Part shown: in pieces, positions 23,842-32,165 of the stretch | Position numbering within the stretch: the stretch's first letter is position 1 | How the letters are laid out: every line of letters begins with the position of its first letter | Virus record (IMG/VR): IMGVR_UViG_3300023284_000531 | Coordinates: 1 to 36,598 of that record | Source: a virus | Strand: one strand, 5' to 3' | DNA length: 36,598 bases | Position numbers and translations under genes: made by a program | The notes under the pieces: generated by a model | Database searches by the model: none | What the model was told of the DNA's origin: nothing | What the model saw: the letters and a program-made list of their open reading frames with translations, nothing else

Positions 23842-23859
23842 CCCGGGGATTATTCCCCG
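23842..23859. other. GC-rich hairpin over a stop codon
   Basis: CCGGGG (about 23842-23848) pairs with CCCCGG (about 23854-23860), and the loop contains the stop codon of the 56-aa gene. No T-run follows on the minus strand, so it may slow RNA decay or modulate expression rather than terminate. Confidence 0.4.
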
Positions 23860-24020
23860 GACGTTGGTTTGTTTCTTGTTCTTGGCCGCGTTTCTGTTTC
23901 GCTGACCTCCTCTATCAAGCCATCTTTGATGTAGCGCTTGGCCACATCTTCAGGGAAGGATTTGATAGTTCCCGCGTTGCCGAGTTGGTTACGGCCCACC
24001 AGTACCTTGTAGACAGCCAT
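23850..24020 (-). CDS. 56-aa protein between tail tube and chaperone
   Basis: ATG at 24020 overlaps the tail-tube stop (TGATG); TAA at 23852-23850. The product begins MAVYKVLVGRNQLGNAGTIK, then PEDVAKRYIKDGLIEEV and a basic Arg/Thr-rich tail. The middle, with VAKRYIKDGLIEEV, resembles the short A..LI..GLIE motif of small phage head or tail proteins. It fills an otherwise empty 215-base gap in a tight operon. Confidence 0.65.
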   Translation of the reverse strand: MAVYKVLVGRNQLGNAGTIKSFPEDVAKRYIKDGLIEEVSETETRPRTRNKPTSGE

Positions 24021-25374: not shown

Positions 25375-25724
25375 TATGGCGAAGTCTTTTCTTCACAGAG
25401 GATTATCCTCATTTTGTCTAATTCGCGGGGGTTTATGACTTCAATGATATTGAAGATCCTTGTGCCGAACAGTAAGCGGTCATGTGGCGTGAGAGCATCT
25501 ACAACGGAGTCACCGGCCCGGATCCTCACTTTATGGGTTACGCGGCTGTCTGTTTGGGCTCCGCCGACGAATTCCCTGCCCTTCATGGGCTCAATCGAAC
25601 ACCACCGCGTAGCGTCTGTGGCCCATGTCTTTCCGGGGTCGCCATGGGCGCTAGGGTTCTCGGATGCACTCTGCAGGGCTATCCTGAACCGCATGGGGCC
25701 TGACTTGACAACCTTGCCCGCCAT
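25374..25724 (-). CDS. Head-tail adaptor (Phage_H_T_join)
   Basis: The product is 116 aa: MRFRIALQSASENPSAHGDP at the N-terminus, RWCSIEPMKGREF, and LFGTRIFNIIEVINPRELDKMRIILCEE at the C-terminus. This matches the SPP1 gp16/head-tail joining family, a stopper ring at the portal exit. Its position after the gp6-like connector is canonical. Confidence 0.82.
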   Translation of the reverse strand: MAGKVVKSGPMRFRIALQSASENPSAHGDPGKTWATDATRWCSIEPMKGREFVGGAQTDSRVTHKVRIRAGDSVVDALTPHDRLLFGTRIFNIIEVINPRELDKMRIILCEEKTSP

Positions 25725-26347
25725 CAGTAAATCTCAACAATCCGCCTTATATCCATCAAGGCGCTGAGGGCCATGGGCAACTCTTTGGGCTGGCCTTCAA
25801 GGGTGAAAGCCTCCCTGTTCTCATACCAATAGGCAAAAAGAAGCTTCATCATGGCTTTAATGTCCTCTGGAACATCGGCAATGCCGCCATATCCAGCCAC
25901 AAAACGGATTGTTACAGCGTTGATTTCATTCTGAGTGGTAGGCCATTGTTTGCCTTCAGCCTCAACCACCCGCCCGGGGAGGCTGTCAGAGTCTACGGTG
26001 AATTCGGTTGTAGCTAGGGTCTGCTCTACGCCATTCTCATCGTTGTATTTGATTGAGGTCACAGAGGAAAGGGGTGAGCGGGGGAAGCGGATTTCATGGG
26101 GGAAGTAATCTAATTTCATATCCCATATGGTGTCCACGAATGAAAGATTCATGTCTCTTTCAGCGAATATCCTTACAGCAGTGATTAGGGTTCCTACTAT
26201 GGTGTCATCGTCCGATATCTCTACTTTTATTTGGTCTTTAGCCTCTGCTAACGTAATGGTGTCAGTAGCGGGCGCGGTGATTTCAACAAGACTCTTTTTC
26301 AGAGAGTTAAAGGGAATCCTGTTATCTATTGAGTCTCTAAAAGGCAT
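25724..26347 (-). CDS. gp6-like head-tail connector
   Basis: The product is 207 aa. TITLAEAKDQIKVEISDDDTIVGTLITAV (about residues 30-58) and FPRSPLSSVTSIKYNDENGVEQTL match the HK97 gp6/phiE125 gp8 family, whose ring binds below the portal. The family is often about 100-190 aa, so this is a full-length form. Confidence 0.82.
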   Translation of the reverse strand: MPFRDSIDNRIPFNSLKKSLVEITAPATDTITLAEAKDQIKVEISDDDTIVGTLITAVRIFAERDMNLSFVDTIWDMKLDYFPHEIRFPRSPLSSVTSIKYNDENGVEQTLATTEFTVDSDSLPGRVVEAEGKQWPTTQNEINAVTIRFVAGYGGIADVPEDIKAMMKLLFAYWYENREAFTLEGQPKELPMALSALMDIRRIVEIY

Positions 26348-26349
26348 GA

Positions 26350-28392
26350 TTACCTACTAATCCCCAGCCATCCGGGCTTAGAAAGTAGGCTTTTGGCGAT
26401 TAAAGCCTCTAGCGGCGGCTGTGCCTCAAAGTTAGACCCGTTCCATTTCCTATCAAATATGGTCGTTACCTCTAGCGTTGATAGCGCCCTACCCCAAACA
26501 TCTACCTCTGCAATGTTAGCCGCTGAACCAGACGCAAAACCGCTATTATTTAAAATGGTCATTGTCATTGTGGTGTCTGATGCTGAAAGGGTTGTGGTCA
26601 GGCTAACGTCGAGTATCCTATTTCTAAAGCAATCGACGTTAGTTCCCTTCTTAACGAATACATACTCAGCTTCATTATCAAAATCTGATGTATCCATATC
26701 GGTAGTGGCAGAACCCAAAGCAGCAGGGCGCAATCTATTAACGTTGTCCTTTACGAGAAAAAAGACAGCAACACCCTGTTTAAGTTCTACGAGGATTTCA
26801 GTAGATCCATTAGTTTCAACTACCCCGACTATCCTGATAGTCCAATCTCCGTTAGAGGAAGATGAATTAAGAGTGAATACTAAATTATTGGGTGCCGCGA
26901 CTCTAGAACTAGCGACTGTCCCATGCCTTGATGTTGTCCAAGGAAGGCCGTAGACCTGTGACGCGGTAGAAACAGCCACATATGAAAAACCCTGCTGCTG
27001 ATCGACTGTTAGGCTCGTATCGGGAACCCATGCTGACCTTAAATTAGTATCAATTCTAGGGGGTTGGAATTTAGCCATAGACGGGGAATATGTTTTATAT
27101 GTTGCTGAATTGTGAAGGTCTGAAATTTCAACGTCTGATAGTACCTTTTGCCACACTGAAATTGCGGCAACGGTTGCATTAAAGTTATTGGCCCCATTAC
27201 TGGAACATATAAAAACATCGTTTGTGGTGACTGGTTTGGTTCCGCGTGTTCCCGTTATGGCTTGGGCGGTATCATCTAGAAACATGGTCATTAAGCCGTC
27301 GTCATCGATGACTATCCATAGATCATAATCAGTCTCATCAACCAAGGGCGCATCTGATTCGGCGGGGTCTATATCAATGTTGTTTTTGCAAACTACCCTT
27401 AGTTCTTTGGTTGTGGTTTTTAAATATATTTGTATATCGTCACCTTTATGAACAAGCACATTGAGGCTTCCGCCAGCCTCCACCCTTACGGTAGCCCTGT
27501 AGGTCAATGCTTTTGCGTAGTCAATGGGGTCTGCAGCGTCTGTATAGCTTGCCTCATCGGATACGCCATCGAAAAGATGCCCAGCACCAGCATCGGCCAG
27601 ATTGTCAAATAGACCGGCCCCCGAATTGGTTAGGGTGATTGCGGCTATATCGTCCGTATCATTTCCTGATTGATTTTCAAAACCGAAATTAATTTTTAAA
27701 TCATCTTCTATGGCGGTGGGTATAAAGGAGTCTGTTACAGAATCATAGCTCTTATAAAGTCCACCATTCCAAAGCTCAGTGACTTGGGCTGCGGTTAGTA
27801 CCTCTTCCCAAACCTCATAGTGCCCTATTGTTACCGCGCTATTTCCAGAATTGGTATTACCGAATCGAACATTTTTATTATCGGTCCCAAAGTTAACAAT
27901 GGATTGAACGGCGATAGTTTCTAAATCACCATTAATGTAACCCCTAATTTCTCTTCCAGTTGGTTCTTCCTCATCGCAAACAAGTATTACGTGATAGGTG
28001 ACACCCTGAAGGAAACTACCATTAGTGGTTGTAGTACTATTGTCTCCACATTGTAGTAGTAGGTTATTTGAAGCCCAGCCAGAAATGCCAAAGTACTTAT
28101 CCATCGCAGTTTTTTGAACAATAAGGGCGCCAAATAAAGTTTCGTCTACACGAATAGATAAGCCGACAGTAAAACCGACCTTACCGCTACTGATGTAGTT
28201 AACCGGATCGACATTATTTTTCATCCGTGGTTTATCGGACACCCCATCAGTAGAGAACCCTTTACCAGCACCACGGACTGATATACCCGGGGTTTCACCG
28301 TCCGTTGTGATAACAGTCCCTAGTAGTTGGTCTATATAGTCTCCCGATGCCTCATCGAGTTTCCAAGAAACCTTTGGTGTGGGGATAGCCAT
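26350..28392 (-). CDS. Triple LamG-like (concanavalin-fold) structural protein
   Basis: The product is 680 aa from the ATG at 28392, which overlaps the upstream stop (TAATG); the ATG at 28410 is less supported. Three similar modules each end in an AxVTELWNGGLYKSYDS- or VEISDLHNSATYKTYSP-like linker helix (about residues 210, 445 and 655). They contain a beta-sandwich pattern with FDGVSD openings, as in LamG/pentraxin carbohydrate-binding domains. Such proteins usually bind glycans. Its place inside the head module, before the connectors, is unusual and suggests a capsid-surface adhesion protein. Confidence 0.65.
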   Translation of the reverse strand: MAIPTPKVSWKLDEASGDYIDQLLGTVITTDGETPGISVRGAGKGFSTDGVSDKPRMKNNVDPVNYISSGKVGFTVGLSIRVDETLFGALIVQKTAMDKYFGISGWASNNLLLQCGDNSTTTTNGSFLQGVTYHVILVCDEEEPTGREIRGYINGDLETIAVQSIVNFGTDNKNVRFGNTNSGNSAVTIGHYEVWEEVLTAAQVTELWNGGLYKSYDSVTDSFIPTAIEDDLKINFGFENQSGNDTDDIAAITLTNSGAGLFDNLADAGAGHLFDGVSDEASYTDAADPIDYAKALTYRATVRVEAGGSLNVLVHKGDDIQIYLKTTTKELRVVCKNNIDIDPAESDAPLVDETDYDLWIVIDDDGLMTMFLDDTAQAITGTRGTKPVTTNDVFICSSNGANNFNATVAAISVWQKVLSDVEISDLHNSATYKTYSPSMAKFQPPRIDTNLRSAWVPDTSLTVDQQQGFSYVAVSTASQVYGLPWTTSRHGTVASSRVAAPNNLVFTLNSSSSNGDWTIRIVGVVETNGSTEILVELKQGVAVFFLVKDNVNRLRPAALGSATTDMDTSDFDNEAEYVFVKKGTNVDCFRNRILDVSLTTTLSASDTTMTMTILNNSGFASGSAANIAEVDVWGRALSTLEVTTIFDRKWNGSNFEAQPPLEALIAKSLLSKPGWLGISR

Positions 28393-28643
28393 TATTCTGC
28401 TGGCTCCCAACCCTCCCCGGCGACGATAGCCCTAGCTTCGGCATACGTTTTATCGACTGCGCCGTGACTGTCACAGGTGGCGCATACGTTGTCATCCGGG
28501 TCGCGGTGGTTTAAATGAATAATGCCCTCACTCTCATCAATCTTAAAGCGGCTGCTGGTTGGGCCGTCCGTATGTGTTGCAATATGGAGGGACGCGGCAT
28601 CGCCGGAAGAGAGGCCCGTAAGGTGTTTGTATGAGCCTTCCAT
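28392..28643 (-). CDS. 83-aa Cys/His protein in head module
   Basis: The product is 83 aa: a Ser/Gly/Asp-rich first half, IIHLNHRDPDDN, then CATCDSH (about residues 54-60), then a helix. The His and CxxC could bind zinc. It is coupled to the LamG gene by TAATG. Position suggests a minor structural protein; no family is recognised. Confidence 0.5.
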   Translation of the reverse strand: MEGSYKHLTGLSSGDAASLHIATHTDGPTSSRFKIDESEGIIHLNHRDPDDNVCATCDSHGAVDKTYAEARAIVAGEGWEPAE

Positions 28644-28645
28644 GA

Positions 28646-29011
28646 TTACGCAATGAGCATTTCAAAGTGGAAATACATGGTCACAGTGGCCCCGGCATCT
28701 TGCACGAAAAAAATCGTTCCACCATTGGCGCAAGGAAGATTGATAGAGCCACCATCGGGGATAAGCCCATAACCCTCGCCTGCCCCAGTGTCTAGGTCTG
28801 TATTATCTCCATATCTCAAATCAGCACCAACGGCTCGGACATGCAGCACCACGGCATTTACAGGTATGACTAGGGGTACTGTGGTTGCGGCTACTGATCG
28901 CGGGGATTCAAGCGCGGTTGCTGTGGCATCGCGTGTCTGTATGTTCGATGCGACCTGAATAGGGCGCCTGTTTAAATCTATGGGCAGTATGCCCGCGTTT
29001 GTCTCTGCCAT
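28646..29011 (-). CDS. Putative head decoration-like beta protein
   Basis: The product is 121 aa: an extended N-terminus with NRRPIQVASNIQTRDATAT, then a beta-rich domain (about residues 45-121) including VPVNAVVLHVRAVGADLRYG. The jelly-roll-like alternating pattern and high Thr/Ala/Asp suggest a small surface or decoration protein, but there is no named family match. Confidence 0.5.
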   Translation of the reverse strand: MAETNAGILPIDLNRRPIQVASNIQTRDATATALESPRSVAATTVPLVIPVNAVVLHVRAVGADLRYGDNTDLDTGAGEGYGLIPDGGSINLPCANGGTIFFVQDAGATVTMYFHFEMLIA

Positions 29012-29033
29012 TAGATGAGCCTTTCAGCTATTT

Positions 29034-29606
29034 CTATTCGTCGCCGTTTTCAGCGTCTTTTTTAGCCTGTGCAGCGGCCTTGGCTTCATCAACCGCTTTA
29101 GCATCAGCATCGGCCTTAGCCTGCTTGTCTGCAGCGGCTTGGTCCTTCTTATCAGAAGCTATGTCTTTTTTGTCTTCCTTGGCCTGTGCGTCTGCCTTGT
29201 CTTTCTCAGCGGCAGCAGCTTTCTTCTGAGCGTCTGCTTTCGCCTTATCGTCTGCCTTGGCTTTCTTGTCAAGTTCTGCCTTGGCCTCTTCATCTTCCTT
29301 AGCGGCAGCGGCCTTGTCTTTTCCATAATTGGGATAGGCCTTTTTAAATTCAGCGTCTTCTTTGTCCCTGCCAGCCTTCTTTGCGTATGCCTTCAACTTG
29401 GCAGCTTCGGCCCTCTCTTGTTCCTTGGTTTCAAAGTGGGCGCATTCGGCCTCGACAGAATGGGGCTCGGCACACTTGGCGTAGCCTCTATCTATCCATC
29501 GCTTAGCGCGTTCCGGGGTGGTTTCAACAACCGTACCTAGATCCGGCATACCTGAGAGGTCTTGTATCATTTCAACTTTCATTTTCTTATCTTTGTTGCT
29601 CATCAT
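29034..29606 (-). CDS. Ala/Lys/Asp-rich coiled-coil structural protein
   Basis: The product is 190 aa. Residues 1-45 contain a compact domain (MKVEMIQDLSGMPDLGTVVETTPERAKRWIDRGYAK) resembling the short N-terminal domain of some phage head or tail fibre-linked proteins. Residues about 55-185 are extremely low-complexity Lys/Ala/Asp/Glu helix. A rod-like spacer or scaffold seems likely. The opposite-strand ORF here is a shadow caused by the base bias. The preceding ribosome site GAAAGGCG supports the ATG at 29606. Confidence 0.6.
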   Translation of the reverse strand: MMSNKDKKMKVEMIQDLSGMPDLGTVVETTPERAKRWIDRGYAKCAEPHSVEAECAHFETKEQERAEAAKLKAYAKKAGRDKEDAEFKKAYPNYGKDKAAAAKEDEEAKAELDKKAKADDKAKADAQKKAAAAEKDKADAQAKEDKKDIASDKKDQAAADKQAKADADAKAVDEAKAAAQAKKDAENGDE

Positions 29607-29612
29607 CGCCTT

Positions 29613-30149
29613 TCAGGCTAACTGTTTTTCTGTTAATTGGTCCACTTCATATCCATAGAAGTTATAACATCCCTTATCAGGTTTCAAGACCGCTGATCCT
29701 TCTGCTATTGATATGTGGCACCCGCTCCTGATAGCAATACCACACCAAGCCTCTACGCAGGCCTTCATGGGCTTGTGTGTTTCATCGCTTGGAAGGTAAT
29801 CAATCCCTACGAGGTTTATAATTTTGTATCCCCTGAAAATCGCCAAGGCAATCATGTAGGCCGGGGTAGATGTGAAGTAAGGGAGGCCGAATTCATCACA
29901 GATGGCTTTGATGGGGTAGTTATCGAGGTTTATAATCTCAAGACCTAGCGCCTTTGCATCTTCTATGGTGCCTACATTGTGGTGTTTAGGATATGTGTGT
30001 ATGTCTTCATCATGCATGAAGAAGATTAGGCTTAAATCCTTGTGGTTTTTATAGACGCCGTTTAGGCCCCATACCTCCCCGCTTATCGGGTGGGCGATAC
30101 GGGAAGGGCCAAGGCCTAATATGGTTACTTCTTTTATCTCTTCAGACAA
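29613..30149 (-). CDS. DUF115-like Rossmann/glycosyltransferase-superfamily protein
   Basis: The product is 178 aa from a TTG at 30149, with AAAGGGG 7-8 bases upstream. VTILGLGPSR (residues 8-17) resembles the N-terminal GxGPS loop of DUF115/Maf-type proteins, and EVWGLNGVY and STPAYMIALAIFRGYKIINLVGIDYL (about 91-118) match their second motif. The family relates to motility accessory factors and sialyltransferase-like enzymes that modify surface proteins with sugars. In a phage head operon it could glycosylate virions, or have lost catalysis. Acceptor and donor are unknown. Confidence 0.6.
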   Translation of the reverse strand: MSEEIKEVTILGLGPSRIAHPISGEVWGLNGVYKNHKDLSLIFFMHDEDIHTYPKHHNVGTIEDAKALGLEIINLDNYPIKAICDEFGLPYFTSTPAYMIALAIFRGYKIINLVGIDYLPSDETHKPMKACVEAWCGIAIRSGCHISIAEGSAVLKPDKGCYNFYGYEVDQLTEKQLA

Positions 30150-30170
30150 AGTAGGCCCCTTTAAAGAAAG

Positions 30171-30196
30171 CCCCCGGCGCGTTACAGCACCGGGGG
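30171..30196. terminator. Hairpin terminator within late operon
   Basis: CCCCCGG (30171-30177) pairs with CCGGGGG (30190-30196) over a 12-nt loop. On the minus strand the stem is followed by CTTTCTTT, and on the plus strand by TTTGTTTATTTTT. It is in the gap between the 30218 and 29613 genes, so it could lower expression of genes after the capsid cluster. Confidence 0.6.
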
Positions 30197-30217
30197 TTTG
30201 TTTATTTTTGTTCGCTA

Positions 30218-30700
30218 CTAAGCGATGACGTTTGCGGTCAAGTCTTTCTGAGGATAACGTGCCCCATATTGGATGTAGGTAACAACGGCCTCATCAGCCG
30301 CGTTAGCCATAGTCAAACGTCCACCGGCAAAGCGTAGATCCACAGGGGTGCCTTGGTCTAAGCCCTCTTTCTTGAGCATATCGACAGAACACTCCTGCAC
30401 AATCAAATCACCAACCGCATCGCCCACAACAGCACCGCTGGTTGTGATTTGAACAGTTGTCCCCGATCCATCGAGGAGGGTGTTACCAACGATTTCCAAG
30501 AGCGTGATGCCCGCTCCTGTAAGAGTAGATGGCATGGCAGCAACCGCAAAACCTTCAAATTCTTGCATGTCCACAAATTGCTTTGTAGTACCACCATCGG
30601 GGGTAACAACAGTGGCAGAGGTGCCGCCGGGATCGTGGTCAAACATGAGGATTTTGGTGTTTCCAAAAAGCTTTTGGTAATCAACGAGTGGAGAAGCCAT
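30218..30700 (-). CDS. Head-associated protein downstream of capsid
   Basis: The product is 160 aa, beta-rich with high Thr/Gly/Val, few charges, and FEGFAVAAMPSTLTGAGITLLEIVGN at about residues 48-73. Position directly after the major capsid gene and before a hairpin suggests a decoration or minor head protein made in quantity. No family name is supported. Confidence 0.6.
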   Translation of the reverse strand: MASPLVDYQKLFGNTKILMFDHDPGGTSATVVTPDGGTTKQFVDMQEFEGFAVAAMPSTLTGAGITLLEIVGNTLLDGSGTTVQITTSGAVVGDAVGDLIVQECSVDMLKKEGLDQGTPVDLRFAGGRLTMANAADEAVVTYIQYGARYPQKDLTANVIA

Positions 30701-30730: not shown

Positions 30731-32071
30731 TTAAGCCCGGGCGTCCAATTTAACAAAGGGAGAGAGAGTAGAGCCGTTACGAGGCGTGAGGGCGGCTTTC
30801 CACCATGGCGCGGCATCGTTACGCATCCAGAATTTGAACGTGTTTTCATGCTCAAGGAAACGAACATGGATGCTCTCAGCGGAGCGCAAGGGCTGGTAAG
30901 TTCCGTCAAGATACTGTGACCAGTTGATAGCCATGATATCGCCAGTGTCACCAACGGTAGGCATGAATTCACTGAAGAAGATGGGCCTGCCCATGAAAAC
31001 GTCTGGAACATCTTCCTTCAGGCTGGGCAGCAAGAGGGGCTGTTCACCACTTCCTGTGTCAACCTTCACGCGGCCAAGCTGTTCCATAATGTCATGGTTG
31101 GCCATCCAGATTGCGGTCTTATAACCCCAGACCCGGGCGCGCATCTTAAGGAAGTTTTCAAACAACAGGGTATCGGCTCCCTGACCGCCCTCTTTGGCGA
31201 TAGAGATAGTTGCGGGAGCATTGATAACACCCGTGAATTCTCCGACACCGTTACCGTTCAGCTTCTCATCAAGCATTTCAGCGCGGAATTCATCGCCAAA
31301 TCCATCTTCGATGATGGCCGCGACAGATTGAGGGCTGTCCTGCATGAGTTCCTCGGTCACATGGGTGACGCCAGTAAGCATGCTTGCAGTTAGTACGACC
31401 TGACTGATTTGCATTCTTGAGGCCGTGGTGCTTTCAGTCTCAGGCTTACGGAAGACGCGGAGGCCACCTGAAACAGATGTACTGTGGTCTTCATCAACAC
31501 GCGCAGGGATCTTGACTGTGGGATTCCCCATGGGCAAAGCCATGGTGCGGCCCAGTGTGGGGTCCGGTTCGTTTTCGCGTTTCAGGAGAGTATTCACAAA
31601 GCCAACAGGCACCAAGAACCCGCCGAATGGATCGGCCACCGTGGACTGCTCATCGGCACCAGCGGCGGCAAGGATCTTCAGGCCATCGTGCGTGACTTCT
31701 TTCCTCTTGATGGAATCCATAAGCTCCATGAAGAAATGCTTGTGTGATTCAAAGCCCTTCTGAGGGTCGTCAAGAATGTTGTCTTTACCGACTTGGACGG
31801 TGCCCGTAGTGGTTGTCTTTGAACCTTTTGATTTATTAAGAGCGTCAACATCGGCTTTCAGTCTTTTGTCGAGAGCCTCTTTTTCAGCGATGCTCTTTTC
31901 AAGAGCTTCGATTTCAGCCTTGAGAGTTTCCCCGTTGTCGAGGTAAGCCTTGATTTGTTTTAATTCCTCATCACTAACATCTCTACCTTCATCGGTAGCT
32001 GTGTCGTTGATGGCTTGAGCGAGGTCAATGTAGTTAGCCCGCTTCTGTTTCAGTTCGGTAAGCTTGTCCAT
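30731..32071 (-). CDS. HK97-fold major capsid protein
   Basis: The product is 446 aa from the ATG at 32071 (GAAAGG 9 bases upstream); the ATG at 32131 extends into a poorly conserved leader. Residues about 1-105 form a charged coiled coil, the delta/scaffold domain, ending near a Thr-rich stretch. The HK97 fold starts near DPFGGFLVPVGF (about residue 140), with LTASMLTGVTHVTEELMQDSP (E-loop/P-domain region) later. The upstream S49 protease would remove the delta domain during maturation. It is the core structural gene of the late operon. Confidence 0.88.
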   Translation of the reverse strand: MDKLTELKQKRANYIDLAQAINDTATDEGRDVSDEELKQIKAYLDNGETLKAEIEALEKSIAEKEALDKRLKADVDALNKSKGSKTTTTGTVQVGKDNILDDPQKGFESHKHFFMELMDSIKRKEVTHDGLKILAAAGADEQSTVADPFGGFLVPVGFVNTLLKRENEPDPTLGRTMALPMGNPTVKIPARVDEDHSTSVSGGLRVFRKPETESTTASRMQISQVVLTASMLTGVTHVTEELMQDSPQSVAAIIEDGFGDEFRAEMLDEKLNGNGVGEFTGVINAPATISIAKEGGQGADTLLFENFLKMRARVWGYKTAIWMANHDIMEQLGRVKVDTGSGEQPLLLPSLKEDVPDVFMGRPIFFSEFMPTVGDTGDIMAINWSQYLDGTYQPLRSAESIHVRFLEHENTFKFWMRNDAAPWWKAALTPRNGSTLSPFVKLDARA

Positions 32072-32165
32072 TGCATCTAACCTTTCAGATGTTTTAAAAA
32101 AAGAGTTGGCTTTGCGTCTGCAAAATGACAAAAGAAACTAGGTGACTCTGCACCAATGAAGAAAA

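Follow-up and report, generated by a model that had tools for sequence, protein, structure and literature searches.

A GT42/Maf-like transferase, predicted to act on head proteins, in the variable head slot of an HK97-type phage from IMG/VR

The DNA considered here is a linear IMG/VR virus record, IMGVR_UViG_3300023284_000531, of 36,598 bases (the window), and its minus strand carries an HK97-type head module in the order terminase, portal, protease, major capsid protein (MCP), six genes, head-tail adaptor, head closure, gp10-like, and tail genes. An initial annotation had read these six genes as an insert between capsid and connector and as a possible capsid surface kit; all six are real minus-strand open reading frames (ORFs), each where it had been called, and they separate the MCP from the head-tail adaptor. 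Our main subject is the second of them, which encodes a predicted sugar transferase, together with the slot in which it lies. The features of the region are as follows, with the evidence for each in brackets.

30731 to 32131, minus strand: MCP, HK97 type (Pfam Phage_capsid, 2e-25; phrog_10, 3e-27)
30218 to 30700, minus strand: H160, 160 amino acids, probable jelly-roll decoration (cement) protein (IMG/VR relatives, AlphaFold, structural matches)
30171 to 30196, minus strand: terminator-like hairpin after H160 (energy against shuffled sequences)
29613 to 30149, minus strand: GT42/Maf-like transferase, 178 amino acids, TTG start (profile against PDB, AlphaFold, gene context)
29034 to 29606, minus strand: small pre-connector domain protein, 190 amino acids, with a Lys/Ala/Asp-rich tail (hidden Markov model, HMM, 1.3e-5)
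28646 to 29011, minus strand: 121-amino acid beta-rich slot protein (59% identity to a protein of locus L091)
28392 to 28643, minus strand: 83-amino acid Cys/His-containing protein (ORF)
26350 to 28392, minus strand: 680-amino acid triple LamG (concanavalin-like) protein (Pfam Laminin_G_3, 2.2e-16)
25724 to 26347, minus strand: head-tail adaptor closing the slot (Pfam Phage_connect_1, 3.5e-8; phrog_442 connector, 1.6e-25)

Taken by itself, the 178-amino acid protein has no match in Pfam (E values up to 1), PHROGs, or NCBIfam. When a profile of 61 family members is compared with PDB sequences, the nine best matches are all GT42 sialyltransferases (7e-7 to 8e-4), the next, unrelated, standing at 0.14, and a profile of only three sequences already places the same nine entries first. 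The Pfam family matched by the most members is MptE-like (PF01973), weakly and in 6 of 61 (best 0.0014), while CST-I weakly matches five (best 0.034); the window protein does not reach the Pfam gathering cut-off for PF01973, the Maf/MptE-like family.

Structure prediction had been suggested for each of the six products, and for two of them, the transferase and H160, it gave a GT42-like and a jelly-roll fold, respectively. The transferase model (mean predicted local distance difference test score, pLDDT, 89.9) retrieves GT42 enzymes at ranks 1 to 10, with CstI (2p56) at Z 11.2, a root-mean-square deviation of 3.0, and 140 residues aligned; below these come an archaeal HPPK (8sd5, Z 9.8), a thiamine pyrophosphokinase (TPK; 3lm8, Z 9.4), and mammalian GT29 sialyltransferases near 7. 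Among viral predicted structures, most of the proteins that the model retrieves are uncharacterised, and a few bear the name MptE-like or DUF115. Both homology to CstI/CstII and the GT42 variant of the GT-A-like fold are found. Judged by sequence profiles, then, the family at 29613 to 30149 is homologous to the GT42 sialyltransferases and the Maf/DUF115 domain, and the DUF115-like Rossmann protein of the initial annotation was right in kind. Residues conserved in the family and kept in the window include Asn30 (equivalent to CstII Asn31), Pro79, Tyr98, Ala101, Ala103, Gly115, Asp117, Glu133, and Tyr165.

Searches with the window protein, and then with alignments, found the family in 109 confirmed IMG/VR stretches, in five stretches across 84,980 prokaryote genomes, and in one of 50,697 phage records; a plasmid search gave no match. 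A relative is also carried by Microcystis phage Mvi-Yong1342-1, where it lies upstream of the terminase. From these, 94 distinct members were collected, the window's included. Some IMG/VR family records may be cellular, and G018/L116 is doubtful, while phage head genes share a contig with a family member in L069, L020, L064, L079, and L025. Gene context was counted in 50 non-redundant family records, in 31 of which an MCP was recognised. The MCP lies within four genes of the transferase in 30 of these 31 loci as against 14.3 expected at random placement, a figure that 0 of 20,000 placements reached (P<5e-5, with lineages that are partly non-independent). The MCPs concerned fall into four clusters, namely the Phage_capsid/phrog_10 type of the window, phrog_371, phrog_267, and phrog_1328. 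The order seen in the window (MCP, in some cases a beta protein, transferase, small protein, connector side) recurs in L002, L003, L069, L075, L078, L079, and L081, where the small protein is the same domain that begins the Lys/Ala/Asp-rich protein of the window.

The second line of evidence is the company of genes for nonulosonic acids (NulOs). In L069 the gene row reads portal, protease, NeuB, NeuC, NeuA, MCP, transferase, connector, with matches to NeuB at 4e-51, to a NeuC-type UDP-GlcNAc 2-epimerase at 1e-42, and to a cytidylyltransferase at 1e-12. In L004, L062, L077, and L055 the gene just before the transferase encodes a cytidylyltransferase; in L073 and L074 one small ORF stands between the two. 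Other NulO routes are seen in L018 and L117 (PseB/PseH-like), L113 (SpsF-like with an aminotransferase), and L115 (NeuC, NeuA, and NeuB), several of these names coming from reading the sequences, which were scanned only in part. Over whole records, NeuB is present in 8 of the 50 and a CMP-sugar synthetase (CTP_transf_3; CMP, cytidine monophosphate) in 12. Of the 50,697 records in the phage collection, three have NeuB, and one of these three, a contig that looks bacterial, is also the only one with the cytidylyltransferase (1 of 50,697). Fisher tests of the family records against this collection give p 8e-23 for NeuB and 3e-36 for the synthetase, with collections and search methods that differ. 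NulO-linked members are scattered over the family tree, with at least five label changes, and NeuB is found in 0 of 22 relatives that share the H160 backbone, in which no transferase was seen. That relatives of the enzyme lie next to capsid genes in many uncultured phages, some of which have sialic-acid-type synthesis genes of their own, suggests that the heads of these phages are sugar-coated. The bacterial-looking contig with NeuA and NeuB that is filed among the phage records is FPLJ01000048.1, from Moritella viscosa.

Three further observations concern the family at large. Transferase paralogues occur in tandem or nearby in L025 (7995 to 10439, four in a row), L009, L010, L011, L013, L014, L015, L061, L079, and L088, and perhaps serve sequential sugar addition or different acceptors. 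In L041 (5235 to 5984) and ten further loci (cluster c10), which form one phage group, the transferase is preceded, at a distance of a few genes, by a protein that matches phrog_3704 (named ferredoxin, in the auxiliary metabolic gene category, 5.6e-28). Finally, two contigs of Clostridia metagenome-assembled genomes (L088, L089) carry family members within sugar gene clusters, beside NeuB and in one case also NeuA, a possible hint at a cellular source of the family.

The best explanation as a whole, to which we give a probability of about 0.6, is that the predicted transferase puts nonulosonic sugars on a head protein, its gene lying in a variable slot of the head operon. This reading starts from what was computed, that is, gene order, the homology and fold of the transferase, the family-wide linkage to the capsid gene, and co-occurrence with NulO genes. 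From these we infer that the enzyme would use a CMP-activated NulO (of the sialic, pseudaminic, or legionaminic type) as donor and attach the sugar to Ser/Thr on the surface of a head protein, for instance the MCP, H160, or another slot product, in the manner of Maf on flagellin. We are reasonably confident that the family consists of NulO transferases and nearly as confident that their target is a virion protein; a head protein is the most probable target for the phage family because of the Maf analogy and the capsid linkage. With somewhat less assurance, and by extension from its family, we favour the view that the divergent copy of the window is itself active as a head-protein NulO transferase.

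Known enzymes offer two points of comparison. The Campylobacter GT42 enzymes CstI and CstII (Pfam CST-I) resemble the phage protein in profile (7e-7), in fold (Z 11), in the Asn equivalent to N31, and in a shared Tyr-Met-x-Ala-x-Ala-Ile helix, but they are about 260 to 290 amino acids long as against 178, and the phage gene sits in a head operon. In GT42 enzymes a lid holds the catalytic His (His188 in CstII, His202 in CstI; PMC4202792). Maf proteins (Maf_flag10/MptE-like, PF01973), which have a CstII-like domain and O-glycosylate flagellin Ser/Thr with NulOs (PMC11339370), share the weak Pfam matches described above and, in the surface protein of a particle, the proposed NulO target; they have three domains (PMC11339370), whereas the phage protein has one, with an activity and an acceptor that are predicted.

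Several points weigh against this explanation and should be kept in mind. The lid is short or absent in the phage protein, so that the general base could not be placed; no lid His is conserved in the family, the catalytic His was not located, and the alignment of the 61-member profile to GT42 stops before the lid. At positions 124 and 125 the window protein has Thr-His for Glu-Tyr, His125 replacing the Tyr of its relatives, and in the tree it sits on a long branch (1.83) without a well-supported sister. The transferase was not seen in the 22 H160-backbone relatives. The window contig has neither NeuB nor a CMP-sugar synthetase, and the CMP-NulO donor would therefore have to be supplied by the host. 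The background rate for the pathway genes is approximate, phage records and IMG/VR records being different samples. The acceptor, lastly, is a prediction that none of the present evidence singles out.

One might suppose instead that the enzyme acts late in infection on the lipopolysaccharide, capsule, or flagellin of the host, where it would block superinfection, and that its place in the head operon is incidental. Bacterial GT42 enzymes act on lipooligosaccharide, phage transferases that modify surfaces are known, and the bacterial relatives in L088 and L089 lie in sugar gene clusters, all of which would suit such a role; the place beside the MCP in nearly every locus counted, across four MCP families, would not, and superinfection-exclusion genes usually lie in moron or lysogeny regions. 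We regard this as unlikely. Hardly more probable is that the protein is a nucleotide enzyme resembling MptE/HPPK or TPK, or that it binds nucleotides without catalysis as a structural part of the head, an idea retained because MptE and HPPK are not far behind GT42 in the structural lists (8sd5 and 3lm8 follow closely). It agrees with the rank of MptE-like among the Pfam matches, with the catalytic base that was not located, and with the C-terminal coiled-coil-like extension of many family members; at E<0.01, however, the sequence profiles match only GT42 among solved structures, and the association with NulO genes speaks for a sugar transferase.

The slot itself can be described from the relatives of H160, which were found in 22 IMG/VR loci, directly behind the MCP in most; close relatives of the MCP were not confirmed in IMG/VR. 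The AlphaFold model of H160 (pLDDT 85.4) is a jelly-roll-like beta sandwich, the fold expected of a phage decoration protein, and jelly-rolls fill its match list, among them the cement proteins of BPP-1 (3j4u, Z 7.7) and KHP40 (7dou, Z 6.9). Like H160, these two have a jelly-roll fold and a gene after the MCP, but their scores of 6.9 to 7.7 fall within the range of unrelated jelly-rolls, and no sequence homology to them was found. A decoration role for H160 is likely, and no firmer than that because many other jelly-rolls score equally. The hairpin behind it (30196 to 30171), terminator-like and already noted in the initial annotation, has ten pairs, nine of them G-C, and a T-rich tail, and its energy was reached by 0 of 100 shuffles. 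Of 18 loci, 12 have a hairpin after H160 whose energy no more than 3 of 100 shuffles reach, with a different sequence each time. It would act as a terminator or attenuator that parts the high-dose head proteins (MCP, H160) from lower-dose slot genes, whose expression it probably lowers.

Because H160 follows the MCP in most relatives, is predicted to be a jelly-roll, and usually has a hairpin behind it, it is a conserved head backbone gene. The head-associated beta protein of the initial annotation thus holds as a decoration-like jelly-roll but falls outside the insert; six genes do intervene, and the insert proper counts the five after H160, in the part of an HK97-type head operon, between the capsid gene and the connector, whose content varies. 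Among listed same-strand neighbours, H160 is followed directly by the connector in L090/L099, L094, L102, L108, and L112, and a single small gene separates the two in L098. Elsewhere the slot holds a 300- and a 144-amino acid protein (L095), a 306-amino acid protein (L105), a 253-amino acid protein with a concanavalin-type domain by eye and without a Pfam match (L109), or seven genes (L091). In L064, a transferase-family record, the slot encodes a protein that bears a carbohydrate-binding module (CBM96, 4e-11). Unrelated head modules contain similar-looking, repeat-like proteins of about 300 amino acids directly after the MCP or H160 (L095, 7653 to 8555; L105, 4294 to 5214; L020, 5780 to 6715; cluster c26); the two scanned (L095, L020) have no Pfam family, and they form a possible head decoration family.

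A single mobile six-gene cassette was considered and rejected, the first gene being backbone and the same set occurring in no relative found. For the same reasons, the gene set being so far unique to the window phage, the kit is unsupported as a unit; its sugar-modification part is strengthened, as far as sequence can tell, by MCP adjacency and by NulO pathways across the family.

The remaining slot genes would encode the small pre-connector protein and head-surface proteins. An HMM of eight small proteins from other phages, with the window protein left out, matches the Lys/Ala/Asp-rich protein at 1.3e-5; its N-terminal 60 or so residues are the common small pre-connector domain, its tail is low-complexity, and this description replaces the separate structural rod that had been proposed. 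A 56-amino acid ORF after the tail tube gene (23850 to 24020) also matches this HMM (0.00099). The 121-amino acid protein has its counterpart (59% identity) between the MCP and connector of L091, and for the 83-amino acid Cys/His protein neither relatives nor a match to any Pfam, PHROGs, or NCBIfam entry were found.

The LamG protein has the three repeats first ascribed to it, as Laminin_G_3 stretches (PF13385; 2.2e-16, 60.8 bits against a Pfam cut-off of 27.6). Translation most likely starts at 28392, where an ATG and the preceding stop codon overlap as TAATG, to give a protein of 680 amino acids. No close relatives were confirmed in IMG/VR. A fixed pairing of LamG and transferase was rejected, LamG occurring in only 5 of the 50 family records; of these five records, to judge from what their contigs cover, the window alone has it between the MCP gene and the connector gene. 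From its position and the slot contents of relatives, we lean toward placing this likely glycan binder on the head. That it serves instead as a tail fibre or in adsorption, its gene lying in the head region by chance, is possible but less probable: residues 152 to 213 weakly match a tail fibre PHROG (0.0032), while the tail-tip genes sit downstream of the tape measure (21348 to 17529), and large beta proteins occupy the same slot in L091, L095, L105, and L109. Adhesion to mucus or polysaccharide, and likewise shielding, is our guess at the benefit of such a head surface.

Phage virion glycosylation has so far been shown in a few mycobacteriophages. PMC12363180, citing Freeman 2023, describes capsid and tail-tube glycosylation by a phage-encoded glycosyltransferase in Che8, Corndog, and Myrna. 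The likeness is that a phage glycosyltransferase modifies virion proteins, as we propose here; the difference is that the sugar proposed here is of the NulO type and that a tblastn search with family members matched no mycobacteriophage record. Among the papers searched, none dealt with NulO transferases of phages or with sialylated phage capsids.

In a broader form, which we offer tentatively and rate a little short of even, many uncultured tailed phages with unrelated head types would independently carry a dedicated capsid sialylation system, an MCP-adjacent GT42/Maf-like transferase with, in some, a full CMP-sialic or CMP-pseudaminic pathway in the operon, giving a sialic coat of the bacterial type; in the window phage a LamG lectin would be added on the same head. 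The family is essentially unnamed and almost absent from cultivated phages, yet widespread in IMG/VR, and it ties sialic-acid-type sugars to phage heads; in operons of the L069 type, the whole sialic-acid route adjoins the presumed capsid target. The finding thereby bears on how environmental phages may shape their surface charge, adhesion, or avoidance of decoys.

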